DNA of 64,000 bases from Aminivibrio pyruvatiphilus (lineage in GTDB: Bacteria > Synergistota > Synergistia > Synergistales > Aminobacteriaceae). The notes beneath the pieces are model-generated. The model saw only the letters and a program-made list of their open reading frames with translations, was not told where the DNA came from and did not search any database. The position numbers were made by a program, and so were the translations under genes. The first letter of the stretch is position 1. Every line of letters starts with the position of its first letter. This document shows, piece by piece, positions 8,132 to 44,873 of the stretch. The stretch is taken from positions 1 through 64,000 of the forward strand of contig NZ_SORI01000017.1 of NCBI RefSeq assembly GCF_004366815.1. The letters run 5' to 3'.

Positions 8132-8542
8132 TCAGAGATCGAGGATCATCCTCAGAAAAGGACGGGGAGAAGTACGGAGTACGAGCCCTCCGTACGTGGC
8201 GGCCTTGACGGAGAGAACCCGGCCGTTGAGGGGGACGGTTCTTCCCGAGGCAGCAATGGCTGGGGGGGAGAGGGACACAGTGACCTTCACGGGGAGAAAA
8301 AATACCGACCGCGTCTCCGCCAGGAAGAGCAGTTCGTTGAGCCAGGAGACTGCCAGTTCTTCTCCGTCTGGTGAGGAAAGAAAGAGTTCGCTTTTTTCCC
8401 CTGATCCGGGGAAATCCCCGGGTGTCAGTCCAGCGGCAAGGAAAAGGAACGCTTCGGCGGCGTCGAGGAAAACCTCGGCCAGGGTGTCAGCCTCCGCCTC
8501 GAATCCGGCATCCGCGGTATGTTCCAGCAGTCTCCAGGCCAT
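8132..8542 (-). CDS. Archease, RtcB cofactor
   Basis: 136 residues starting MAWRLLEHTADAGFEAEA. The LEHTAD motif and the acidic metal-binding positions are typical of archease. The start at 8542 is set by an aaaggagg on the minus strand; longer readings upstream lack family similarity. Archease speeds guanylation and turnover of RtcB and broadens its nucleotide use. The pair with rtcB forms an RNA-repair or tRNA-splicing-type operon. Confidence 0.9.
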   Translation of the reverse strand: MAWRLLEHTADAGFEAEADTLAEVFLDAAEAFLFLAAGLTPGDFPGSGEKSELFLSSPDGEELAVSWLNELLFLAETRSVFFLPVKVTVSLSPPAIAASGRTVPLNGRVLSVKAATYGGLVLRTSPRPFLRMILDL

Positions 8543-8612
8543 GGCCTCCCCAGCCTCCTTTTCTACGGATATCCTTTGATCCTTAATGTTACCACGGAGA
8601 GGAACAGAGGAC

Positions 8613-8641
8613 TTGACAAAGGTTAGATGTCGAACTATTAT
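8613..8641 (+). promoter_or_regulatory. Near-consensus promoter of the marR gene
   Basis: A perfect TTGACA (8613-8618), a 17-base spacer and TATTAT (8636-8641). The expected transcript start is 8648-8649, which coincides with the ATG at 8649, so the mRNA would be leaderless. The spacer contains a TGTCGAA that is roughly inverted to TTGACA and could be part of an operator; that part is weak. Confidence 0.8.
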
Positions 8642-8648
8642 TATGTCC

Positions 8649-9092
8649 ATGGAAAAAACACAACAGATTATCCGCCGCATAGGCGGAATTCACGATTCAA
8701 TACACCGTTTTATCTCCGGATATATTGAGCAATGCGAGAAGGAATGCCTTGTTCCCTCCCACGGAGAACTTCTCACAGCCCTTTTTTCAGGGAGGGAATT
8801 CACCATGGGCGACCTCGCCCGGGAGATCCGGAAAACAAAGCCCACGGTGACGGTGCTTGTCGAGAAGCTTGTCCGCTGCGGGTACGTTATCAGGGAACGG
8901 GATGCCCGGGACGGGCGAATTTCCTATATCCGGCTCACCGAAAAAGGCTGGGGGCTGAAACCTGTTCTTGAGGATACTTTGAGTTCCCTTGAAATGAGAC
9001 TTTTTTCAGGTTTTACTGTGCAGGAAAAAAACAATCTGGAGGAAATGCTGTTCCGGATTGAAGAAAATTCGAAGGAGGAGAAGAGAATATGA
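8649..9092 (+). CDS. MarR-family transcriptional regulator
   Basis: 147 residues from ATG 8649 (alternative ATG 8643). It is a winged helix-turn-helix of MarR type: the recognition region contains FTMGDLAREIRKTKPTVTVLVEKLVRCGYV and the wing is RERDARDGRISYIRLTEKG. Helical dimerisation segments lie at both ends. No Shine-Dalgarno precedes either ATG and the promoter -10 box almost abuts the start, so translation is probably leaderless. It overlaps the nitroreductase gene by ATGA, suggesting that it controls this operon, a common MarR arrangement. Confidence 0.88.
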   Translation: MEKTQQIIRRIGGIHDSIHRFISGYIEQCEKECLVPSHGELLTALFSGREFTMGDLAREIRKTKPTVTVLVEKLVRCGYVIRERDARDGRISYIRLTEKGWGLKPVLEDTLSSLEMRLFSGFTVQEKNNLEEMLFRIEENSKEEKRI

Positions 9093-17583: not shown

Positions 17584-17690
17584 GTTTTTCACTCCCGTTG
17601 GAAATAGCTCGGGAGAGTATACCACTTTCCGGGCCTGTTTATAAGGAAGTTTTTCAATTCGTTTACATTTTGTGAGGATATTAACTTTCA

Positions 17691-17718
17691 TTTACAATGG
17701 ATCGAACCGTAGTATAAT
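17691..17718 (+). promoter_or_regulatory. Promoter of the Mrp/Mbh hydrogenase operon
   Basis: TTTACA (17691-17696), a 16-base spacer and a perfect TATAAT (17713-17718). The start site would be near 17725, giving a leader of about 73 nt before the GTG of the first gene. A second TTTACA copy occurs 29 bases upstream (17662). Both lie in the AT-rich gap shared with the divergent transporter gene. Confidence 0.7.
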
Positions 17719-17797
17719 GTATCCGATGTTTTTTCACTCTCCGGATTTCCGGAATTCCATTCGGAATGTTCAAAATTCAAGGCGGGAGGTGGAGTAT

Positions 17798-18283
17798 GTG
17801 TTCATTTTCGTAGTCTCCTTTCTGATGTACCTTCTCCTTGTCTGGTCGGGAGGGGCCATACCCATGATCGAAGTGCTTATCGCACTGATCCTGGCGTCTG
17901 TCATCACTGTGGCCTTCCGTTCCTGGCACAAGGGAAGGAAAATCAGCATGAGGGGACTGGACCCAAAAAGGTGGTTCGGATTTTTCCACTACCTGTTCGG
18001 GCCCTTTGCGGTCGGGTTGGCCAAGGCCAACATCGACGTGGCGAAAAGGGTCATAACGGGGGATATCCGGCCCGGAATCGTCAAGGTGAACCCCGGCCTG
18101 ACGACCGATGTCGCCAGGACCATGCTGGCGGATTCCATAACCCTTACCCCGGGAACACTCACCGTGGACGTTGACGAGGAGGGAGCTTTCTACATCCACT
18201 GGATCTATGTGGAGGATGAAAATCCCACCGAAGAGCAGCTCTACGGAACATTTGGCCATTGGGCGAGGAGGTTGGCGGAGTGA
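17798..18283 (+). CDS. mrpE: MrpE-like subunit (MbhA position) of membrane hydrogenase
   Basis: 161 residues from GTG 17798, five bases after gggaggtgg. Membrane helices lie near the N-terminus (FIFVVSFLMYLLLVW and a second span through about residue 50). A cytosolic domain follows with the conserved GLTTDVARTMLADSITLTPGTLTVDV of Na+/H+ antiporter MnhE/MrpE. It is the first of a 14-gene series in the Pyrococcus mbhA-N order. In Mbh this subunit belongs to the ion-translocating membrane module. The preceding ORF extension is rejected because it spans the promoter. Confidence 0.88.
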   Translation: MFIFVVSFLMYLLLVWSGGAIPMIEVLIALILASVITVAFRSWHKGRKISMRGLDPKRWFGFFHYLFGPFAVGLAKANIDVAKRVITGDIRPGIVKVNPGLTTDVARTMLADSITLTPGTLTVDVDEEGAFYIHWIYVEDENPTEEQLYGTFGHWARRLAE

Positions 18284-18540
18284 CAAACCTGATCTTTATG
18301 TTCGCTGCGGCGTTCAGCGGCCTTCTGGCCGTAGCGGTGCTGGGGCGTCTCGTAGCCGGTCCCACCGTTGCCGACAGGGCAGTGGCCCTGGATACCATGA
18401 ACACCCTGGTGGTCGGGCTGATGATGATCCTCGCGGCGGTCTACGATTCGGTAGTAATGGTTGACGTGGCCATAGTCTATGCCGGGCTTTCCTTTGTCGG
18501 GACCATGTTCATCGCCCGGTTCATCGAAGGGGAGGTGTGA
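18280..18540 (+). CDS. mrpF: MrpF-like subunit (MbhB position)
   Basis: 86 residues starting at a GTG that overlaps the mrpE stop (GTGA). Three membrane helices span nearly the whole length. The family hallmark is VLGRLVAGPTVADRAVALDTMN, followed by AIVYAGLSFVGTMFIARFIEG. In Mrp complexes MrpF packs with MrpE and MrpG. The ribosome binding site gaggaggtt lies inside mrpE. Confidence 0.9.
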   Translation: MTNLIFMFAAAFSGLLAVAVLGRLVAGPTVADRAVALDTMNTLVVGLMMILAAVYDSVVMVDVAIVYAGLSFVGTMFIARFIEGEV

Positions 18541-18544
18541 GGGG

Positions 18545-18916
18545 ATGTTTCTTATCGTTGGAATCCTCATCCTCATCGGCCTTGGCTTCAATGCGCTGGG
18601 AGCTTTTTCCCTCTACAGGTTCCCCGATGTCTACACGAGACTTCACGGCGCCACGAAGTGTACCACCTTCGGGACGCTTTTCACCATGTTCGCGGTGGTT
18701 GCGTACTCTCTCGGCAAGCTTGTCTCCACGGGGGAGGCCCGTTTCGGAGTCTTTATCATTCACGGCGCCGTGGCAGCCCTTGTCCTTCTTATTACCAATG
18801 CCACCGGTGCCCACGCTATAGCCCGCGCCGCCCACAGGAGCGGTATTTTCCCTGCCCTTGCAGTGGTTGACCGCCTGGAAGAAAAAGAAGAAGCGAAAGG
18901 AGGCTCGTCCAGATGA
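18545..18916 (+). CDS. mrpG: MrpG-like subunit (MbhC position)
   Basis: 123 residues, ATG 18545, four bases after mrpF. Three membrane helices and the MnhG signature FNALGAFSLYRFPDVYTRLHGATKCTTFG are visible. The C-terminal tail is charged (VVDRLEEKEEAKGG). Together with MrpE and MrpF it forms the small-subunit part of the ion-pumping module. It overlaps the next gene by ATGA. Confidence 0.9.
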   Translation: MFLIVGILILIGLGFNALGAFSLYRFPDVYTRLHGATKCTTFGTLFTMFAVVAYSLGKLVSTGEARFGVFIIHGAVAALVLLITNATGAHAIARAAHRSGIFPALAVVDRLEEKEEAKGGSSR

Positions 18917-19176
18917 ACAACATGCTGCACCTGCTGGTACTGACTCTCCTGGTGCTGTCCGCCTTCTTTGCCCTCTGGTTCAAGGACCTCATTTCATCGG
19001 TGATTGCCCTTGCTGTGTTCAGCGTTATGACCGCCCTGGAATTCTATATCCTCCAGGCTCCTGACGTAGCCATTGCCGAGGCCGCCATCGGAGCCGGCCT
19101 GAGCACCGCCATCTTCATCATCGCCATCAGGGCCTGCGGAAAGGTCAAGAAGAGCGACGGAGGTGACGGAAGATGA
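18913..19176 (+). CDS. mbhD: DUF4040 / MbhD-like membrane subunit
   Basis: 87 residues with two to three membrane helices. The sequence LKDLISSVIALAVFSVMTALEFYILQAPDVAIAEAAIGAGLSTAIF matches the DUF4040 segment found at the C-terminus of MrpA and as a free subunit, MbhD, in membrane hydrogenases. The glutamate in DVAIAEAAIG is conserved in the family and is thought to lie on an ion path. It overlaps both neighbours by 4 bases. Confidence 0.85.
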   Translation: MNNMLHLLVLTLLVLSAFFALWFKDLISSVIALAVFSVMTALEFYILQAPDVAIAEAAIGAGLSTAIFIIAIRACGKVKKSDGGDGR

Positions 19177-19445
19177 AGAAGATCATTTTCATCGTCTCGG
19201 CGATTATCCTCGGAGCCCTGGTGGTGGGAGCGGTGGACAACATACGCCCCTTCGGGGAGCCCGGCGCGGCGCCCATGGACGACCATTTCATCGCCAGGGC
19301 ACTTACGGAAAGATCATCGGAAAACGTGGTGACCTCCATCGTTTTCGACTACAGGGGTTTTGACACCATAGGAGAAGCGGCGGTTCTCTTCACGGCCCTT
19401 TGCGCCATTACCGCCCTCTTCCGTGAAGGGAGGAAAAAGCAGTGA
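19173..19445 (+). CDS. mbhE: MbhE-like membrane subunit
   Basis: 90 residues. One N-terminal helix is followed by a periplasmic-type loop and a second helix with the motif VVTSIVFDYRGFDTIGEAAVLFTALCAI, which corresponds to the extreme C-terminal part of MrpA or the MbhE subunit. It overlaps mbhD by ATGA and mrpB by GTGA, so translation is coupled throughout. Confidence 0.82.
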   Translation: MKKIIFIVSAIILGALVVGAVDNIRPFGEPGAAPMDDHFIARALTERSSENVVTSIVFDYRGFDTIGEAAVLFTALCAITALFREGRKKQ

Positions 19446-19924
19446 GGCCGCTTTCTGTCGTCGTCAGAACCGGCTGCGACCTTTTCGCCTGGTTCCTGAT
19501 CGTCTTCGGCGCGAGCGTTATCATCCACGGTGACGTCACCCCCGGGGGAGGATTCCAGGGAGGAGCCGTGGCAGCCACCTTTATCACCCTGCTCCTTGTC
19601 GCCTACGGCGGAAAGAAGGTTTTTTCGTGGGTCAGGATGGGGATCTTCAACGGCATGCTCCTTTTCGGCCTCATGGCCTTTTTCCTTCTCGGCCTCATGG
19701 GGTTCCCCAATGCCTTCCTCTACAACTTCCTGGCCATTCCCCACGAAGTAGTCCAGGCTACCGGACACGGTGTGATTCCCCCGTCGGGCACCATCGCCCT
19801 CATGGACATTGCCGTCGGTATCGAGGTGGCGGGAGCTCTTTCCATTATCGTGCTTTCCATGTTCAGAGGCATCCGGCTTTTCCGTGAGGGGCCTATGGAG
19901 GAGGAATCAGGCCATGATCGGTAA
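19442..19924 (+). CDS. mrpB: MrpB-like subunit (MbhF position)
   Basis: 160 residues from a GTG start overlapping the previous stop. Four membrane helices are present, with the MnhB signature FGASVIIHGDVTPGGGFQGGAVAA near residues 22-45, which marks the family unambiguously. In Mrp antiporters MrpB contacts MrpA and MrpC and is needed for Na+/H+ exchange. It overlaps mrpC by 11 bases. Confidence 0.92.
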   Translation: MRPLSVVVRTGCDLFAWFLIVFGASVIIHGDVTPGGGFQGGAVAATFITLLLVAYGGKKVFSWVRMGIFNGMLLFGLMAFFLLGLMGFPNAFLYNFLAIPHEVVQATGHGVIPPSGTIALMDIAVGIEVAGALSIIVLSMFRGIRLFREGPMEEESGHDR

Positions 19925-20261
19925 CGCACCGTTTTTCGTCGTCGGAGTTCTTTTCCTTATGGGACTCGTGGGCATTTTTATGTCGAAGAATCTCATCAAG
20001 ATCGCCATCGCCGTGAGCATCCTCGGAAGCGCCGTCAACATCTTCCTGGTCGCTCTCGGGTATCGCGCGGGAGGGACGATCCCCGTCCATTTCCTGGCCG
20101 GAGAGGGTACCACCATGGTCCTCCCCACGCCCCAGGCAATGACCCTGACCGCCATCGTCATCGCCCTTGCGACCACGGCCCTTCTGCTGTCGCTAATCAT
20201 GCTCGTCTGGCGCCATTACGGAACCCTTGACGTGGACGAGATCCGGAGGTTGAGAGGATGA
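19914..20261 (+). CDS. mrpC: MrpC/NuoK-like subunit (MbhG position)
   Basis: 115 residues from ATG 19914, with three membrane helices of NuoK type. Family features are MSKNLIKIAIAVSILGSAVNIFLVALGY and PTPQAMTLTAIVIALATTALLLSL. NuoK-like subunits carry part of the ion channel in complex I relatives. It overlaps mrpB upstream and mrpD downstream. Confidence 0.92.
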   Translation: MIGNAPFFVVGVLFLMGLVGIFMSKNLIKIAIAVSILGSAVNIFLVALGYRAGGTIPVHFLAGEGTTMVLPTPQAMTLTAIVIALATTALLLSLIMLVWRHYGTLDVDEIRRLRG

Positions 20262-21823
20262 ACTGGAACGAACATCTTCCTGCGCTGCTTCTGATTATTC
20301 CTCTCTTCGGCGCCTTCCTCGCGCCGGTCTGCTCCATGGGAGGAAAACTGGCCCGGAACATCCTGCTTGTGGCAGCGACCTTCCTCACGCTGCTGGTAGC
20401 CTTCCTGCTCTGGAGGAGCGTCCTCGCCAGCGGGATTCAGTATTATGTCATGGGCGGCGAGAGCTTCAGGCTCGCCCTTCCGTCGGGAATGGCCCTTCCG
20501 GTGAGAATCATTCTCGAAGTTGACGCCTTCAGCGCTTTCATGGTTCTGTGCGGCGCCATCGCATCATTTGCAGGAGCACTCTTCTCGGTGAACTACATGA
20601 GCAGGTTCTCCGGTCTGAGCCGTTTCGCATCTCTTTACCTTCTGCTCACCACGGGCATGCTGGGAATGATGGTGACGGGCGACATGTTCAACTTCTTCAT
20701 CTTCATCGAGATTTCGTCCATAGCCTCCTTCGGACTGATCGCCTTCTGGAGGGACAAGCCGTCGGCCATCGAGGCGAGTTTCAAGTACGCCCTGATCTCC
20801 CAGGTCGGGTCCATGATGATCCTCATCGCCGCCGGTTCCCTCTACGGGAAGTACAATGCCCTGAACATGGCGGCCCTGGGAAGCGTCCTGACCATGGGGA
20901 CCATGGAAAAGCTCGCCCTTGTTTTCCTGGTGGGATCCCTTGCCATGAAGTGCGGCACCTTCCCCATGCATATGTGGCTTCCCGATGCCTATGCGGAAGC
21001 TCCCACGGGTGTGACATGCCTGCTGGTGGCGGTGAGCCAGGCATCGCTCTACGGCCTGATGAGAGTCTGCTTCTCCATCTACGGAGTGGCCATGGGCAGC
21101 ACCTTCGTTCCCTGGATGATCATCATCTTCGGCCTCGCGTCCATGTTCTTCGGCGTCACCATGGCGGTGGTGCAGCATGAGATCAAGAGGCTGATAGGCT
21201 ACCATTCCGTCTCCCAGGTCGGCTACATGCTCCTCGGCCTCGGAGTGGGCATGCTCGTCCTCGGCGACCCCCGCGGCATGGCAGACTTCGGCTTCACCGC
21301 CATCAAGGGCGGCGTGTTCCATATCTTCAACTACACCATGTACAAGGCCCTGCTGTTCCTCGCTGCAGGCGCGGTCTATTACGCCACCGGCAAGAGAGAC
21401 CTCAACGATCTCGGTGGTCTTGCCAGAAAGATGCCCTATACGACCTTCATGTTCGTCATAGCCGCGGCGGCCATCTCCGGACTTCCCCCCTTCAACGGGT
21501 TCGTGTCCAAGCTGCTCATCTACGAGTCTTCCTTCGCCGTGCATCCTTCACTCGCAGTGGTGGCTCTCGTGACCTCCGTCCTTACCCTGGCATCCTTCGT
21601 CAAGGTCTTCCAGACGGCGTTCCTCGGTCCCGAGAAGAACAGCCTGCTCCACGTCCGGGAAGTTCCTCCCGCCATGCTCGCAGGAATGGCGGTTCTTACG
21701 GTCGCCGTTCTCGGTGCCACTCTGTTCCCCTCCTGGACTCTATCCAACCTTGTGGAGCCTGCGGCCAGGGCCCTTGTTGACCAGAGCGGATACATCGGCG
21801 CCATCATGGGAGGTGGAATGTGA
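20258..21823 (+). CDS. mrpD: MrpD/NuoN-like antiporter subunit (MbhH position)
   Basis: 521 residues with about 14 membrane helices. Key elements of the proton/Na antiporter fold are present: FFIFIEISSIASFGLIAFW with the conserved glutamate near residue 150, KCGTFPMHMWLPDAYAEAPTGVT with lysine and proline of the broken helix, and HEIKRLIGYHSVSQVGYMLLG. It is the only large antiporter-like subunit in this operon, as in archaeal Mbh (MbhH). Na+ or H+ specificity cannot be told from sequence. Confidence 0.93.
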   Translation: MNWNEHLPALLLIIPLFGAFLAPVCSMGGKLARNILLVAATFLTLLVAFLLWRSVLASGIQYYVMGGESFRLALPSGMALPVRIILEVDAFSAFMVLCGAIASFAGALFSVNYMSRFSGLSRFASLYLLLTTGMLGMMVTGDMFNFFIFIEISSIASFGLIAFWRDKPSAIEASFKYALISQVGSMMILIAAGSLYGKYNALNMAALGSVLTMGTMEKLALVFLVGSLAMKCGTFPMHMWLPDAYAEAPTGVTCLLVAVSQASLYGLMRVCFSIYGVAMGSTFVPWMIIIFGLASMFFGVTMAVVQHEIKRLIGYHSVSQVGYMLLGLGVGMLVLGDPRGMADFGFTAIKGGVFHIFNYTMYKALLFLAAGAVYYATGKRDLNDLGGLARKMPYTTFMFVIAAAAISGLPPFNGFVSKLLIYESSFAVHPSLAVVALVTSVLTLASFVKVFQTAFLGPEKNSLLHVREVPPAMLAGMAVLTVAVLGATLFPSWTLSNLVEPAARALVDQSGYIGAIMGGGM

Positions 21824-22161
21824 TGGGAAAGGTCTATACCGGATTCGGCTACTGGGACGTAGGGGCGTGGATTCTCTTCTTCGCCGTGGCGGCCTTCTAC
21901 ATTCTCTGGCTGCGCGCCCAGGGCAGGTCCGATTTTAAAAAAGGCACCGACCAGGATGAAATCTACTGGTCAGGAAACGAGGTCCCCGAGGACGGAGCGG
22001 AACTATCCGTTCCTGCTTCCTCCGCATACTGGGGCTTCAGGAAGGCCCTTGAGCCGTTTTACAAAGGGCTTCTCGGAATGCACACAGGCATAGCGACTGA
22101 CATGGTTGGGTATTACGTCCTTTCCGTCGCGTTCATGGCCGTGTTCATTCTGCTGGTGTAG
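21823..22161 (+). CDS. mbhI: MbhI-like small membrane subunit
   Basis: 112 residues starting at ATG 21823 (TGATG overlap; GTG 21820 is also possible). An N-terminal helix (AWILFFAVAAFYILWLRAQG) precedes a soluble acidic stretch, and a second helix lies at the C-terminus (YYVLSVAFMAVFILLV). Position and layout match MbhI, the linker that bridges the antiporter and hydrogenase halves in Mbh. Sequence identity to the family could not be tested, so the name rests mainly on context. Confidence 0.7.
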   Translation: MGKVYTGFGYWDVGAWILFFAVAAFYILWLRAQGRSDFKKGTDQDEIYWSGNEVPEDGAELSVPASSAYWGFRKALEPFYKGLLGMHTGIATDMVGYYVLSVAFMAVFILLV

Positions 22162-22172
22162 GAGGTCGGCCC

Positions 22173-22637
22173 ATGTTGAAACTTGAAAAATACCTGGAAA
22201 TCCTGCCGAAATCTCTGTGGGTGACCACCTGCAATTCCGGTTCGTGCAACGGGTGTGACATCGAAATTGTTGCCACCATCAGCCCGCGGTACGACATCGA
22301 ACGGCTGGGCATGAAGCTGGTGGGAACGCCCCGCCACGCGGACGTGCTGATCGTCACGGGCCCCGTGACGAAGTTCATGAAGGAAAAGCTTCTCAGAATC
22401 TACAACCAGATGCCCGACCCGAAGGCGGTCGTGGTGGTGGGAAACTGCGGAGCCTCCGGCGACGTGTTCTACAAATCCTATAATCTCGAAGGTCCGGTGG
22501 ACAGGATCATTCCGGTGGATGTTTTCGTCCACGGATGTCCCCCCCGGCCCGAAGCGATCATCGAAGGGGTAGCCAAGGCAGTGCTGAAGCTCGAACGCCT
22601 CAGGGGCGACCTTCAGAAAGCGGGTGAGGGTCAATAA
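22173..22637 (+). CDS. mbhJ: [NiFe]-hydrogenase small subunit, NuoB-like (MbhJ)
   Basis: 154 residues. The proximal [4Fe-4S] ligands are visible: Cys25 and Cys28 in GSCNGCDIE, Cys92 in VVGNCGASGD and Cys122 in VHGCPPRP. The SCNGCDIE form is typical of group 4 hydrogenase small subunits rather than complex I NuoB. It passes electrons from the ferredoxin subunit to the NiFe site in the large subunit. The following gene starts on the last base of its stop codon. Confidence 0.93.
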   Translation: MLKLEKYLEILPKSLWVTTCNSGSCNGCDIEIVATISPRYDIERLGMKLVGTPRHADVLIVTGPVTKFMKEKLLRIYNQMPDPKAVVVVGNCGASGDVFYKSYNLEGPVDRIIPVDVFVHGCPPRPEAIIEGVAKAVLKLERLRGDLQKAGEGQ

Positions 22638-23191
22638 TGAGTTTCCCGATGAATTCCGTGGACAACGTCACGGTCGCAAAATCTCCGGCTGAAGTGGCGG
22701 ACCGCATCCGTTCCGTCTTCGGCCAGGGAGCGGTGCTCGAAGTCCGTGAGAGGAAAGCCGGAAAGGACGATACCGTGGGCCATCACGACATCTGGGCGAA
22801 GGTTGAGAGAGACCGTTTCCTTGATTTCGTTGACACTCTGGCCGAGTTCGATTTCCCCCAGTTTCATATTATTTCCGGAAACGACGACGGGGGCGTGGTG
22901 ACTCTGTACTATCACTTCACCCTCTTCCAGGTTGCCGGCAGACGGAACCGCATCGGCGTGGCCGTTGCCGTTCCGGTGGATAAAAAAGACCTCGTCATGC
23001 CGTCTCTTTTCTCCCGGATTCCCGGGGTGGAGTACAGCGAGCGGGAGACCCGCGAAATGTTCGGCGTGGATTTTGACGGCCTGCCGAACAAGGCTCTCGT
23101 CTTCCTTCCCGAGGAATGGGACGAGTCCATCAAGCCATGGCGCAGGGACGAGGCCGGGCCTTCCGCGAACGACGTGCGGGAGCTTTCCTAG
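22637..23191 (+). CDS. mbhK: NuoC-like hydrogenase subunit (MbhK)
   Basis: 184 residues, soluble. The NuoC/30-kDa region contains VTLYYHFTLFQV and the strongly conserved SRIPGVEYSERETREMFGVDFDG, followed by FLPEEWDE. This subunit scaffolds the small and large hydrogenase subunits. It is separate from the NuoD-like gene, as in Mbh, rather than fused as in HycE. Confidence 0.9.
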   Translation: MSFPMNSVDNVTVAKSPAEVADRIRSVFGQGAVLEVRERKAGKDDTVGHHDIWAKVERDRFLDFVDTLAEFDFPQFHIISGNDDGGVVTLYYHFTLFQVAGRRNRIGVAVAVPVDKKDLVMPSLFSRIPGVEYSERETREMFGVDFDGLPNKALVFLPEEWDESIKPWRRDEAGPSANDVRELS

Positions 23192-23202: not shown

Positions 23203-24438
23203 ATGGAGAAAAAATATAAAGTTCCCATAGGTCCGGTGCATGTCGGCCTGAAAGAACCCATTACCGCCTGGCTGGACCTCGAGGGCGAAAAGATCGTGGG
23301 AGCCACGGTCCGCCCCGGAGCCATCCACAGGGGAATCGAATTCATGGCCAGGGACCGGAATCCGATCCAGGTTATCTATCTTTCGGAGCGCATCTGCGGC
23401 ATCTGCTCCTTCAGCCACGTCATCGCGTTCCTGCGGGCCGTGGAGGACGCAGCCTCCGTCCCGGTGCCGCCGAGGGCCCAGTACATCCGCTCCCTTGTTC
23501 TTGAGCTCGAGCGGCTTCACTCCCATATGCTATGGGCCGGCGTCGCGTGCTATACCATCGGGTTCGATTCCGCCTTCCACCTGGGTATGGCACTGCGGGA
23601 AAAGGTCATGGACGTTCTCGAAGTCCTGTCCGGAAACCGAGTGAACTACGGTGTGGCCACGGTAGGCGGGGTCAGGTGGGATGTCACCCCCGAGCTTGCG
23701 AAGACGGTAAAGCAGATGGTGAAGTACTACAAGCAGGAATTCGCTCCTTTCTACGACGTGGTTACAGCCGACCCCATCGCCAAGGCCAGGCTGCGGGACG
23801 TGGGCGTCCTTACCTACGAAGAGGCTATCCGATACAGCGCCGTGGGGCCCACGGCAAGGGCGAGCGGAGTGAGGTGCGACCTCAGGGAGAGTTCTCCCTA
23901 CGAAGCATACGGAGACATAGGCGTCCGGGCAGTGGTCCCTCAGGACTACTACGGAAAGGCCTACGGCGACGTGTTTGACCGCTTCCTTGTCCGGGTCCAC
24001 GAGGTGTACCAGTCCCTCGACATCATCGACAAGATCATGGCCGGTCTTCCAGAAGGGGACATCATGTGGGAGAAGAACCTGAACAAGGTCCTCGCCTTCC
24101 TCAAGAAAGCCGAGGGCACAGGCTGGGCATCCATCGAGGCACCCCGGGGAGACGACACTCACGTGGTTCACCTCAAGGGCGGAGACGAGAACGTGACCTG
24201 GTGGAAGGTCCGTGCCCCTACATACGCCAACGCCGTTTCCTGGCCCCTCATGTTCCGGAACAACGAGCTTGCGGACGCACCGCTCATCATCAACAGCATC
24301 GACCCCTGCATCTCATGCATGGAGCGCATGCTGGCCACGGACAGCTCGACGGGAGCCCGGAAAGTGGTCACCCGGGCCGAACTGCTGGAGAAGTGCAGAG
24401 AGAAAACAAGGAGGCTGATGCAGAATGGTGGTCGTTAG
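23203..24438 (+). CDS. mbhL: [NiFe]-hydrogenase large subunit, NuoD-like (MbhL)
   Basis: 411 residues. Both NiFe-binding motifs are intact: RICGICSFSH (Cys65, Cys68) and DPCISCMER (Cys369, Cys372). This separates it from complex I NuoD and from the sulfur-reducing Mbs/Mbx type, which lack a full ligand set. About 36 residues follow the second motif and may be removed by a maturation protease. The N-terminal PGAIHRGIEFM and LSGNRVNYGVATVGGVRWDV also fit. It catalyses proton reduction or H2 oxidation at the membrane. It overlaps mbhM by 14 bases. Confidence 0.94.
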   Translation: MEKKYKVPIGPVHVGLKEPITAWLDLEGEKIVGATVRPGAIHRGIEFMARDRNPIQVIYLSERICGICSFSHVIAFLRAVEDAASVPVPPRAQYIRSLVLELERLHSHMLWAGVACYTIGFDSAFHLGMALREKVMDVLEVLSGNRVNYGVATVGGVRWDVTPELAKTVKQMVKYYKQEFAPFYDVVTADPIAKARLRDVGVLTYEEAIRYSAVGPTARASGVRCDLRESSPYEAYGDIGVRAVVPQDYYGKAYGDVFDRFLVRVHEVYQSLDIIDKIMAGLPEGDIMWEKNLNKVLAFLKKAEGTGWASIEAPRGDDTHVVHLKGGDENVTWWKVRAPTYANAVSWPLMFRNNELADAPLIINSIDPCISCMERMLATDSSTGARKVVTRAELLEKCREKTRRLMQNGGR

Positions 24439-25423
24439 CCTTATTATGCGCCTTATTGCGGGCGCGGCGCTTATGCTCCTCGTGGCTGCCCTTGCCTTCC
24501 TCTTCGAGGGAGTGGACCGGGTGGTTCATGCAAGGATGCAGCGGAGGATCGGCCCCCCCGTCTTCCAGCCCTTTCTGGATCTGGTAAAGCTGCTGGGCAA
24601 GGAAAACATCGTTCCCCGGCGGGCGGTGGCGTGGGCCTTCAACGGCGCCCCCTGGGTAGCCGCTGCCACCATGCTGCTCGTGTTCCTCTATATACCCATC
24701 GGTTCTCTCCCTCCCATCCTGGGCGGTGAAGGGGACATGATCCTCATCATCTACCTCCTTGGCCTCTCCGGCGTCGCCATGGCCGTGGGCGGCTTCGCCA
24801 GCGGCAACCCCATCGCCAACGTGGGCGCACAGCGGGAAATGATCCTGATGATGAGCTACGAGCTTCCCCTGGCGGTAGTGGTCAGCACCCTGGCCTACGT
24901 CGCCTACAAGACCGGCATGCCGGGCGAGCCCTTCAGCCTGGAGACTTTCTCCGGAATGTCAGTGTGGGGCGTTGTCGGCAAAGTGGGTTTCCTGGGCATT
25001 CTCTGCCTCTTCCTCGCCCTTGTCCTTGTGGTCCCCGGCGAGACCGGCAAGGGGCCCATGGACATCCCCGAGGCGAAAACGGAAATACTGGAAGGACTCA
25101 TCATCGAGTATTCCGGCACAAACCTCGCCATGTTCAAGATAACCTTCGCCCTGAGAGCAACGGCCATGGCCGCCATCATCACGGCCATTTTCTTCCCGTG
25201 GTCTCTCGGCTCCTTCCTCGGCTTCGGGAGCATTTTCCTCTATGCCCTGGATTTCCTCTGGTTCTGGGTGAAGGTCTTCGTGGTGCAGATCATATTCGTC
25301 ACCTTCATGCGGACCGCCTTCGGCCGGTTTAAGATCTGGCAGGCGTCCGAATTTTACCTGATCAAGGTTGCGGGTCTTTCCATCGCCGGAATGATCCTTG
25401 CATCTGTCGGTCTGGTGATCTAG
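24425..25423 (+). CDS. mbhM: NuoH-like membrane subunit (MbhM)
   Basis: 332 residues with about eight membrane helices. NuoH features include DRVVHARMQRRIGPPVFQPFLDLVKLLGKE in the first loop, GAQREMILMMSYELPLAVVV, and MDIPEAKTEILEGLIIEYSG, the acidic loop that couples redox and ion transport. It anchors the hydrogenase arm to the membrane module. Confidence 0.94.
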   Translation: MVVVSLIMRLIAGAALMLLVAALAFLFEGVDRVVHARMQRRIGPPVFQPFLDLVKLLGKENIVPRRAVAWAFNGAPWVAAATMLLVFLYIPIGSLPPILGGEGDMILIIYLLGLSGVAMAVGGFASGNPIANVGAQREMILMMSYELPLAVVVSTLAYVAYKTGMPGEPFSLETFSGMSVWGVVGKVGFLGILCLFLALVLVVPGETGKGPMDIPEAKTEILEGLIIEYSGTNLAMFKITFALRATAMAAIITAIFFPWSLGSFLGFGSIFLYALDFLWFWVKVFVVQIIFVTFMRTAFGRFKIWQASEFYLIKVAGLSIAGMILASVGLVI

Positions 25424-25439: not shown

Positions 25440-26078
25440 ATGCTGAACCGGATGGCAATGCTTCTGCTCCGGCAGGTCGCTGAAAAAACGGTAACCAACC
25501 CCTTCCCCGTGCAGGCTATGCCCGATTCGCTTTCGGACGCTCTTCAGGCCGCCCAGGACGGGGAGATTGAACTCAACCCGCCCGTGGAAACGACGGAAAG
25601 GTTCCGCGGAAGGCTGAACTACGACAAGTCTGCCTGCATCGGCTGTAAGCTCTGCATCAAGGTCTGCCCCGCGAACGCGACGGTCTTTCTTCCCGAAGAG
25701 AAGAAGATCCAGATCCATAATGACCGCTGCTGTTTCTGCGCCCAGTGTACCGAGATCTGCCCGGTGAAGTGCCTCACCATGTCGTCCGAATACCTTATCT
25801 CCTCCTACGACAGGAAGGCCCAGATCACCACCGACACCGGCAAACCCCAGCCCGGGGAGGGCCCGCAGAAAAAAACGGTCTACCGGGTTATGTCCGACAA
25901 ATGCATAGGATGCACGAAATGTGCCAGGAACTGCCCCGTGGGCTGCATTTCCGGAAAGGTCAAAGAACCCCACGTCATTGACGAATCGGCCTGCATCGGC
26001 TGTGGAAAATGCGCCGAAGTCTGCCCGAAGGATGCCGTGGAGGCTGTGGAGATCGACGTTCCGGCGGACGGAAAGTAA
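25440..26078 (+). CDS. mbhN: NuoI/MbhN-like ferredoxin subunit with four [4Fe-4S] motifs
   Basis: 212 residues. The N-terminal part is the expected NuoI/MbhN domain, with CxxCxxCxxxC motifs at Cys66-76 and Cys97-107. After a linker rich in Gly, Pro and Lys (about 130-147), a second 2x[4Fe-4S] domain follows at Cys155-165 and Cys185-195. Its context (VMSDKCIGCTKCARNCP, ISGKVKEPHVID, CIGCGKCAEVCP) resembles the C-terminal ferredoxin domain of NuoF/HydB-type NADH-dehydrogenase and hydrogenase subunits. The usual MbhN has only the first two clusters. It ends the operon before a strong terminator. Confidence 0.92.
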   Translation: MLNRMAMLLLRQVAEKTVTNPFPVQAMPDSLSDALQAAQDGEIELNPPVETTERFRGRLNYDKSACIGCKLCIKVCPANATVFLPEEKKIQIHNDRCCFCAQCTEICPVKCLTMSSEYLISSYDRKAQITTDTGKPQPGEGPQKKTVYRVMSDKCIGCTKCARNCPVGCISGKVKEPHVIDESACIGCGKCAEVCPKDAVEAVEIDVPADGK

Positions 26079-43060: not shown

Positions 43061-43495
43061 GTGGGGCAGGAGCCGTACGTCGAAGAGTACACCATCCAGG
43101 CGGGGGATTTTACCGCTATCGGCGAAGCCTCCACGAAATTCCGGGCGACCCTCAAGATGCTCGGAATTCCCTCGGAAGTTGTCCGGAGGGCGGCGGTGGT
43201 GGCCTATGAAGCTGAGATGAACGCCATGATCCATGCAGGTGGCGGGACTCTCCGAATGACGGTGGCATCGGATCATCTGGAGATCATGGCTGCGGACCAG
43301 GGGCCGGGCATTCCCGACGTGGCCCTGGCCATGCAGGAAGGATATTCCACCGCTTCGGACGAGATCCGGGAACTTGGGTTCGGGGCGGGCATGGGATTGC
43401 CCAATATCGAACGGAATTCCGACGGGATGAACATCGAGACGGAAGTGGGGATCGGAACGATCCTGACAGCGAGAATCAACTTTCCGGGACAGTGA
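43061..43495 (+). CDS. Anti-sigma-factor-type ATP-binding protein (HATPase_c)
   Basis: 144 residues from a GTG start 3 bases after the DRTGG gene. It has the GHKL ATP-binding N box (VVAYEAEMNAMIHAGGG), a G1 box (MAADQGPGIPDV) and a G2 box (LGFGAGMGLPNIER). It resembles RsbW/SpoIIAB serine kinases but lacks a visible partner anti-anti-sigma factor. A signalling role in the module is inferred. Confidence 0.85.
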   Translation: MGQEPYVEEYTIQAGDFTAIGEASTKFRATLKMLGIPSEVVRRAAVVAYEAEMNAMIHAGGGTLRMTVASDHLEIMAADQGPGIPDVALAMQEGYSTASDEIRELGFGAGMGLPNIERNSDGMNIETEVGIGTILTARINFPGQ

Positions 43496-43553
43496 GCTTT
43501 CCACCCGTCATGAACGGCATTCAGTACTGGAATGACACGAAGGAGTGGTGAAG

Positions 43554-44873
43554 GTGTCCGGAGGAATTAGGGTTCGTGAGGCCCGGTGCCGAGGGTGCGC
43601 CAACTGCATAAAATCGTGTCCCACCGAAGCGATCCGGGTGATCGACGGGCTGATACGCATTATCCCCGACCTCTGCATTGACTGCGGGGAATGCATACGA
43701 AGCTGCAGGGACAAGGCCATCACCGTGAACGAGGATGAATGGGATCTCCTCCGGTCCAGGGAAGGACTGATTCTCATGGCCGACCCGACCTTTTACGTGC
43801 AGGTGGGCGCTTATTCCCGCCCGCGGCTGATGAAAGAGGCCCTGGAATTTCACGGGCTCAGGGACATTGCCGAGTTTGCATCAATAGCGTTTGACCTTGC
43901 GGCATATGCTTCGGCTGCCATTATCAGGGAAGGGGGAGACAATCTTCCCTACATCTCCACCTACTGTCCTGCCGTCATCAGGCTCATCCAGATCAACTTT
44001 CCCGAACTCGTGGGGAGGATCCTCCCGGTGGAATCTCCCCTGGAGACTGCGGTCACCATCTGGAGGAACGCCACGGGCGGAAAGGAAAAAGTGACCCTCG
44101 TCGCACCCTGTCCCGCAAAGGCGACTCTCGTCCGGAATCCCGTGGGGAGAGGGAAAAGCTCTCTTGAGTACGTGGTGAGCGTAAAAAAGGTCATCCGCGA
44201 CCTTCTCGCCTACAACGTCAAGGTCACGGGTACGAAGACCAGGGCTATCAGCAGGCGGTGGCTGCTCTGGTCCATTACCGGCGGGGAGGCCAGGCACATT
44301 TCGTCCTTCTCCGACAAGGGGCTGACTTCCGTCGCCGTTTCGGGCCTGCGGAATACCATGGACCTGCTCAACGAGCTGGAGCTCGGTCGGCTCGGGGGAG
44401 TGGACTTTATCGAGTGCAGGGCCTGTGACCTCGGGTGCATTGGTGGAACGGGAACCTACGAGTCCCGGTTCCTTTCCCAGCTCCGCCTGGAGAACATCGA
44501 GACGGAGTGGCTTCCCTCCCACGAGGAGATGGAAGAAATCCGCTCCTGGTACGACAAGGGAATATGGCGCCTGGATAATCCCATCCAGGTTAAGGAGCGG
44601 CTGCCCCTTTCCCAGGACCTGGGAGAGGCCATGGCCAAACTCCGGGAGATGGACGCCATCTATGCCGGGTTACCCCACATCGACTGCGGTTCCTGCGGAC
44701 GCCCCTCCTGCCGGGCCCTGGCGGAGGATATTGTCCGCGGGCAGGGAGACGAGACGGACTGCATCTTCAAGCTGAGGGAGCGGATTACCGCCCTCAGCGG
44801 GGAGATACGGTCCCTTTCCTCCAAGCTTCCCCACACCCTTCACCCCTCGGGAAAAAGGAGGCAGGGAACATGA
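43554..44873 (+). CDS. [FeFe]-hydrogenase-like iron-sulfur protein, sensory type suspected
   Basis: 439 residues from GTG 43554 (aaggag 8 bases upstream). An N-terminal 2x[4Fe-4S] ferredoxin domain has Cys12/15/18/22 and Cys41/44/47/51. The central [Fe]-hydrogenase large-subunit domain keeps reduced forms of the H-cluster motifs: L1 STYCPAV (Cys138), L2 APCPAKA (Cys186) and L3 ECRACDLGCIGG (Cys291, Cys295). The proton-relay Cys of L1 is Tyr. A C-terminal CGSCGRPSC...C motif (Cys378-403) resembles the RnfB-type cluster domain seen in group C sensory hydrogenases. No PAS domain is attached. Confidence 0.85.
   Translation: MSGGIRVREARCRGCANCIKSCPTEAIRVIDGLIRIIPDLCIDCGECIRSCRDKAITVNEDEWDLLRSREGLILMADPTFYVQVGAYSRPRLMKEALEFHGLRDIAEFASIAFDLAAYASAAIIREGGDNLPYISTYCPAVIRLIQINFPELVGRILPVESPLETAVTIWRNATGGKEKVTLVAPCPAKATLVRNPVGRGKSSLEYVVSVKKVIRDLLAYNVKVTGTKTRAISRRWLLWSITGGEARHISSFSDKGLTSVAVSGLRNTMDLLNELELGRLGGVDFIECRACDLGCIGGTGTYESRFLSQLRLENIETEWLPSHEEMEEIRSWYDKGIWRLDNPIQVKERLPLSQDLGEAMAKLREMDAIYAGLPHIDCGSCGRPSCRALAEDIVRGQGDETDCIFKLRERITALSGEIRSLSSKLPHTLHPSGKRRQGT

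Follow-up and report, generated by a model that had tools for sequence, protein, structure and literature searches.

A HydB-type dicluster ferredoxin domain fused to MbhN of a predicted Mrp-linked [NiFe] membrane hydrogenase in Aminivibrio pyruvatiphilus and other Synergistota

The window analyzed here, a stretch of 64,000 nucleotides from Aminivibrio pyruvatiphilus (contig NZ_SORI01000017.1, positions 1 to 64,000), carries on its forward strand an operon that combines Mrp-type antiporter subunits with MbhH, MbhI, and MbhJ to MbhN. An MrpE-like subunit (17672..18283; PF01899 MNHE, E = 3.8e-33; taken from the first start of the ORF, the true start probably lying later) has homologues in the same gene order in those loci of relatives that extend that far. 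Six further genes are named from position and have syntenic homologues: MrpF-like (18259..18540), MrpG-like (18479..18916; overlapping MrpF, with an uncertain start), MbhD-like (18913..19176), MbhE-like (19173..19445), MbhF/MrpB-like (19442..19924), and MbhG/MrpC-like (19809..20261; homologues are mostly shorter, and the true start is probably later). The remaining genes encode MbhH, an antiporter-like membrane subunit (20258..21823; NF006240, 712 bits, cut-off 662; PF00361); MbhI (21820..22161; NF053600, 118.4 bits, cut-off 95); MbhJ, the small subunit, expected to hold the proximal [4Fe-4S] cluster (22173..22637; PF01058, E = 3.9e-31); MbhK, of the 30 kDa type (22637..23191; PF00329, E = 1.9e-20); MbhL, the [NiFe] large subunit (23203..24438; PF00346 and PF00374); the NuoH-like membrane subunit MbhM (24425..25423; PF00146, E = 8e-62); and MbhN (25440..26078), the last gene of the operon. 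Since MbhL retains both [NiFe] cysteine pairs (CGIC at 65, Cys65-68; CISC at 369, Cys369-372) within this operon order, the complex looks like a hydrogenase and not like a complex-I-like or sulfur-reducing relative. Its gene content identifies it as a group-4, Mrp-linked [NiFe] membrane hydrogenase with predicted H2/ion coupling.

Downstream of the operon lie ORFs that resemble, by eye, glutamyl-tRNA synthetase (on the opposite strand) and DNA polymerase I, which we take to be gltX-like and polA-like genes. Such neighbors recur, again by eye, 3' of mbhN in many relatives, which fits vertical descent. Elsewhere in the window (43061-44873), an anti-sigma-factor-like ORF (TIGR01925, 44.5 bits, far below the cut-off) adjoins a protein of 442 residues whose match to [FeFe] hydrogenase group B1 (96.9 bits) likewise falls below the cut-off; the pair is possibly a regulatory hydrogenase-like gene.

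The mbhN frame encodes 212 residues with no internal stop, and its translation contains the four complete CxxCxxCxxxC sets that an earlier note on this DNA had described (Cys66-76, 97-107, 155-165, and 185-195). Pfam likewise finds four Fer4 stretches, with E = 2.9e-25 for the entire protein. In a whole-genome scan each pair of sets passed the Fer4_7 cut-off by itself: the first, which forms the core of the NuoI/MbhN type (25635..25772) and aligns with the Pyrococcus furiosus subunit 6cfw_N, at E = 9.5e-9, and the second, at 25899-26036, at E = 1.7e-9. The second pair belongs to a C-terminal 2[4Fe-4S] domain of the HydB/BfuB type (residues 148-204; 25881..26051). MbhN scores 140.8 bits against the MbhN-type family NF006221 (cut-off 124; best stretch, residues 7-128); the top match of that family in a six-frame search of the genome reached 122.3 bits, below the cut-off. 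NF006221 describes proteins of about 136 residues with two [4Fe-4S] sets, a profile to which four sets in 212 residues do not conform, and with a core that passes the family cut-off the protein classifies as a variant of MbhN. No match to the NuoF-type (FMN/NADH 51 kDa) protein was found in MbhN among 17 Pfam families up to E = 0.01.

The two pairs are joined by a fast-evolving tether (residues 129-147; 25824..25880), which the earlier note had called Gly/Pro-rich. The window linker does contain Gly and Pro; across 34 four-set proteins, however, linkers of 22 to 104 residues consist mainly of Glu, Lys, Pro, and Ala, together with Val, Thr, and Gly. The spacing between the pairs is 47 residues in the window and 48 to 129 residues in 32 relatives. 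HydB has a zinc hinge with three Cys ligands and one His in the available excerpts of its description (PMC9499530); linker Cys is absent from 33 of the 34 four-set proteins (present in 1/34) and His occurs in 5/34, so the hinge has not been carried over. We compared dN and dS in six pairs of near relatives, many dS values being saturated. Between the window and L031, the linker has a dN of 0.20 (dS, 0.68), versus 0.02 before it and 0.03 after it, and the C-terminal domain has a dN of 0.030 with a dS of 0.72; the contrast is less clear against L032 (linker dN, 0.125 versus 0.10 and 0.09). Over the six pairs, protein-level change in the C-terminal domain is roughly as slow as in the core and mostly faster in the linker. 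These values indicate purifying selection on the C-terminal domain.

An AlphaFold2 model of the single chain (29 sequences; mean pLDDT, 79.2; pTM, 0.44) predicts two confident domains (residues 61-110 and 151-200; pLDDT, 87 to 93) separated by a region at 70 to 79, with an uncertain mutual arrangement. In searches with Foldseek and VIA-align 2, the first part matches 6cfw_N, NuoI, and formate-hydrogenlyase subunits, and the second matches HydB, StnB, Nfn-ABC, tungsten-Bfu B subunits, RnfB, and small ferredoxins. The modeled C-terminal domain superimposes on HydB (8a6t_B) with an rmsd of 0.9 Å over 56 columns and on solved HydB-type C-terminal domains in general at 0.9 to 1.0 Å (Foldseek); against the HydB-type 9mqx_B the comparison gave Z = 12.0 and 1.3 Å over 64 aligned residues. 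Dicluster folds are common, so the fold alone does not show a function. With a net charge of -2 to +4 (n = 32), the domain does not exceed the core pair (-1 to +5) in basicity, and no clear charge signature of a new ferredoxin site emerged from this comparison (the HydB charge set, n = 31, includes L236, which is not HydB and was excluded from the final domain tree). No contact surface for the domain on Mbh was identified.

A search with the 212-aa MbhN in 185 Synergistota genomes, with at most 16 candidates scored per genome, gave matches at E = 1e-25 or better in at least 72. MbhN was read in 69 of these; the other three (G040, G042, and G043) were judged to be two-set proteins from a match range ending at residue 127. 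Of the 69 genomes, 34 encode an MbhN with four sets in a single frame and 35 encode one with two sets, a count that provides the survey of the fusion across the phylum that the earlier note had proposed. The four-set genomes span six family-level groups (f1, f3, f6, f7, f8, and f10), and the four-set fusion is real and conserved. One four-set protein (L076, genome G062) has Arg in place of the first Cys of the second set, which may be an error, as the assembly is given as 8% contaminated. A contig scan with two DNA patterns, both drawn from the first cluster pair and favoring Synergistota, supplied the named loci (80 of 180 confirmed loci were taken). Among them, Thermovirga (L128) and Dethiosulfovibrio (L126) have four sets, and Acetomicrobium hydrogeniformans strain OS1 (L147), presumably the type strain, and Pyramidobacter (L154) have two. 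A metagenome-assembled genome labeled A. hydrogeniformans (L131, G030) has four sets and falls into a family-level group different from that of OS1. A search of titles and abstract openings, which most subscription papers lay outside, found no published record of a four-cluster MbhN.

A tree of 68 tips was built from MbhH, MbhJ, MbhL, and MbhM and rooted on two deeper tips; L037 (a second piece of G001) and L095 (G118) were too short to be included, L059 and L076 were set to the four-set state by hand, and the assignment of loci to genomes, the family labels, and the set of Rnf-bearing genomes were likewise entered by hand. Parsimony with equal costs requires nine changes; in the reconstruction traced here, the domain was acquired once, by the ancestor of 56 tips (node support, 0.95), and lost eight times. 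Some of the nodes that place losses are weak (e.g., 0.01 for G037 with G054), and raising the gain cost 10-fold favors an older origin with 12 losses. The distribution thus fits a single gain within Synergistota followed by repeated loss. One inferred loss has left a visible trace: the MbhN of G115 (L092; ORF 8350-8940, minus strand) keeps, by eye, the linker and a shortened tail without cluster sets, which is a decayed C-terminal domain. This genome has an Rnf match and no PF10589 HydB match at E = 1e-8. The two-set MbhN of L073 (G057) bears a long, Gln/Glu-rich, low-complexity tail with a basic end, and its sister species have the extra domain. A tblastn search for domain remnants in 15 of the 35 two-set loci returned only MbhN's own first pair or weak matches elsewhere; L048 has a separate downstream ferredoxin-like gene with 28% identity. 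In family f5 (L057, L058, and L090), Mbh is of a distinct and divergent kind, placed on a long branch (MbhL identity, 44 to 45% in L057 and L058); its genes lie near the same polA-like neighbor.

Outside Synergistota, in a sample without Thermococcota and Thermotogota as groups, matches were found in at least 32 of 294 genomes of the phylum of G186 (L156, titled Methanoregulaceae archaeon; at most 10 candidates each) and in at least 2 of 398 genomes of the phylum of G483 (L162, titled Firmicutes bacterium; at most 7 candidates each). MbhN was read in 24 of the 32 former genomes; in the other 8 the match range ends at 127-128 (three), covers 5-83 (two), or ends at 136-151 (three). The 29 outside loci with MbhN read include 27 two-set proteins, representing 26 distinct loci (L258 and L280 are the same place), whose large subunits show the C-terminal [NiFe] CxxC; most stretches from L258 to L277 are too short to include the N-terminal CxxC. 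The statement that MbhN-type subunits usually have two clusters thus agrees with 26 group-4 hydrogenase loci outside the phylum, and MbhN homologues do not generally carry four clusters among those read. The other two loci (L278, 8784-9461; L279, 8188-8976) encode NuoI-like proteins with four sets in archaeal complex-I-like operons. Like the MbhN of the window, they are NuoI-type subunits extended by another cluster pair at the C-terminus. Their identity is 26 to 29%, and no [NiFe] cysteine pairs were found in the accompanying large subunits, which points to a probably independent fusion.

Compared with ORFs near HydB-type matches and with other ferredoxin-like proteins, the C-terminal domain has its best matches in HydB C-termini. 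It shares 62, 62, and 46% identity with the formate-dehydrogenase-linked, Stn-like, and NiFe-Hyd-like HydB-type proteins of its own genome, which, with the Foldseek superposition on 8a6t_B, upholds the proposed resemblance of the second pair to HydB-type C-terminal domains. In a FastTree domain tree of fewer than 60 columns, with several weak nodes, 33 distinct MbhN C-terminal domains form one group (support, 0.63) that joins the HydB of L216 at 0.94 and falls inside the HydB C-terminal domains, apart from MbhN first pairs and eight Rnf-locus domains. L216 and L229 are part of formate dehydrogenase modules according to a family search, and L207 and L222 probably are by eye. In L251 (3196-6000, minus strand), the formate dehydrogenase alpha subunit is divided into two ORFs (391 and 526 aa) adjoining HydB and NuoE-like genes, perhaps at a selenocysteine stop. 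The family models do not single out HydB: the whole protein also passes the cut-offs of the RnfB model TIGR01944 (77.4 versus 68.7 bits; best stretch, residues 143-204), a small-ferredoxin family (69.7 versus 65 bits), and PorD/KorD (62.2 versus 60.05 bits), the best stretch lying in the domain in the latter two cases as well. These scores left our estimates unchanged, given that the domain already stands apart from those of the Rnf loci in the tree. An RnfB origin was rejected on the basis of that separation. Nor is the protein classified as RnfB: it groups apart from the RnfB domains of the phylum and lies in an Mbh operon, and the source genome (G000) has no PF03116 Rnf match. The domain thus appears to derive from the C-terminal domain of HydB/BfuB in soluble bifurcating enzymes.

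The reading we favor, at a probability of about 0.6, is that MbhN carries the ferredoxin-exchange domain of HydB/BfuB on a flexible tether as a mobile ferredoxin-docking relay that feeds the core clusters. In the available excerpts, the P. furiosus MbhN is where ferredoxin docks, and three clusters conduct electrons to the [NiFe] site (PMC11228991); the C-terminal domain of HydB and StnB is described as a proposed or putative ferredoxin site and, in HydB, as flexible (PMC9499530, PMC8880783, and PMC10482914). Taken together, these descriptions make a mobile relay the simplest reading. The domain keeps all eight Cys in the window and would bind two [4Fe-4S] clusters, giving five clusters per complex. 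Reduced ferredoxin would pass electrons to the tethered domain, which would swing to MbhN's own two clusters; from there, electrons would reach the MbhJ cluster and the [NiFe] site, where H2 formation would drive ion pumping, or the reverse. The gain might be faster capture, or buffering, of low-potential electrons, and the inferred losses imply that the domain is dispensable. Of the two roles that the earlier note had offered for the extra domain, a second ferredoxin input comes near to this putative relay into MbhN's clusters.

The other role, a docking port, appears unlikely. Here the domain, by mimicking the HydB C-terminal domain, would recruit one of the soluble bifurcating modules (formate dehydrogenase, Stn transhydrogenase, or NiFe-Hyd) and thereby give electrons from NADH or formate a direct route to the membrane hydrogenase. 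The nearest HydB relatives in the tree are indeed formate-dehydrogenase-linked, and a combined Mbh-Bfu complex has been predicted in Chloroflexi (PMC9304861, as far as its available text goes). HydB-type matches occur in 34/34 four-set genomes, but also in 36/38 other genomes with MbhN; the presence of HydB therefore does not discriminate and was discarded as a correlate of the domain. Against docking, the C-terminal domain of HydB/StnB is described as the ferredoxin side in the excerpts cited above, and the zinc hinge and FMN part are absent. Moreover, no HydB-like or multi-cluster ORF was found among up to four ORFs after mbhN in any four-set locus (judged by eye, in a comparison restricted to the downstream side and cut short in some loci by the end of the contig). 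A dedicated NADH- or formate-linked module is thus not borne out. A transient, membrane-anchored system resembling Mbh-Bfu, in which the domain trades electrons directly with formate-dehydrogenase, Stn, or NiFe-Hyd modules, is similarly doubtful; if it were true, electrons from formate or from NADH plus ferredoxin would feed an ion-pumping hydrogenase in species most of which have no Rnf.

Rnf (PF03116) was found in 20 of the 72 genomes with MbhN. On the tree, 3/33 four-set and 17/35 two-set tips have it, i.e., 30/33 four-set tips do not. Two of the three Rnf-bearing four-set tips belong to one genus, and the third is the contaminated assembly G062. Domain loss is associated with Rnf over 63 tips (Fisher P = 0.0014), 16 of which are two-set tips without Rnf, but the association weakens to P = 0.09 in simulations of Rnf on the tree. 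The link between Rnf absence and domain retention is therefore suggestive, not significant with phylogeny, and Rnf is not claimed as a correlate of loss.

An electron buffer or weakly selected accessory seems quite improbable. On this reading, the extra clusters would serve as an electron store or shield the core clusters, would hardly influence which partner is used, and would frequently be lost. The eight inferred losses, including the decayed remnant in G115, and the two-set state of 35/69 genomes would suit such a role; yet the dN of the domain is about as low as that of the core in the six pairs (many with saturated dS), and all eight domain Cys are kept in 34 of the 35 proteins with any trace of the domain (partly by class definition). 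Internal duplication of MbhN's own cluster pair was rejected as very improbable: both pairs are ferredoxin-type 2[4Fe-4S] folds, but the window domain averages 27% identity to 31 MbhN first pairs versus 49% (maximum, 61%) to 26 HydB C-terminal domains, and the two occupy separate parts of the domain tree, which indicates that the second pair is no duplicate of the first. Finally, the possibility that a sequencing error joined two genes, which the earlier note had raised against itself, can be dismissed, since the same single open frame recurs in 34 genomes and no supporting point was found.

These findings suggest that the ferredoxin-exchange part of Bfu enzymes was transferred, as a module of its own, to an ion-pumping hydrogenase. 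Because four-set, two-set, and decayed versions occur naturally within one order, a ready comparison exists for asking what limits ferredoxin-to-H2 flow in Mbh and whether electron circuits in solution and in the membrane make contact. If the domain does serve as a mobile ferredoxin relay, the module could be tried out on other Mbh enzymes.

Among known systems, the closest counterpart of the two-cluster part is the MbhN of the P. furiosus membrane-bound hydrogenase, the ferredoxin-facing subunit of the same kind of complex (6cfw_N; window residues 45-126 align at E = 4.5e-23). Its 139-residue chain holds two clusters, followed by one in MbhJ, and lacks both the tether and the second dicluster domain. 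The RnfB ferredoxin domain is a similar dicluster domain on a separate branch; the window domain shares on average 38% identity (maximum, 47%) with eight Synergistota Rnf-locus domains, seven of them in RnfB-sized ORFs. The C-terminal domain of HydB/BfuB (in HydABC, StnABC, Wor-Bfu, and Nfn-ABC), a 2[4Fe-4S] ferredoxin-like domain, is homologous, with 41 to 62% identity to Synergistota HydB-type proteins; in the window it belongs to a membrane hydrogenase subunit, and neither the FMN/NADH domain nor a Cys-bearing hinge accompanies it. The Mbh-Bfu of Dehalococcoides, a prediction given in the available portion of PMC9304861, likewise combines a group-4 membrane hydrogenase with bifurcating Bfu parts. 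As described there, however, whole BfuABC genes lie in the hydrogenase cluster, whereas in the window only the ferredoxin domain is present, fused to MbhN.
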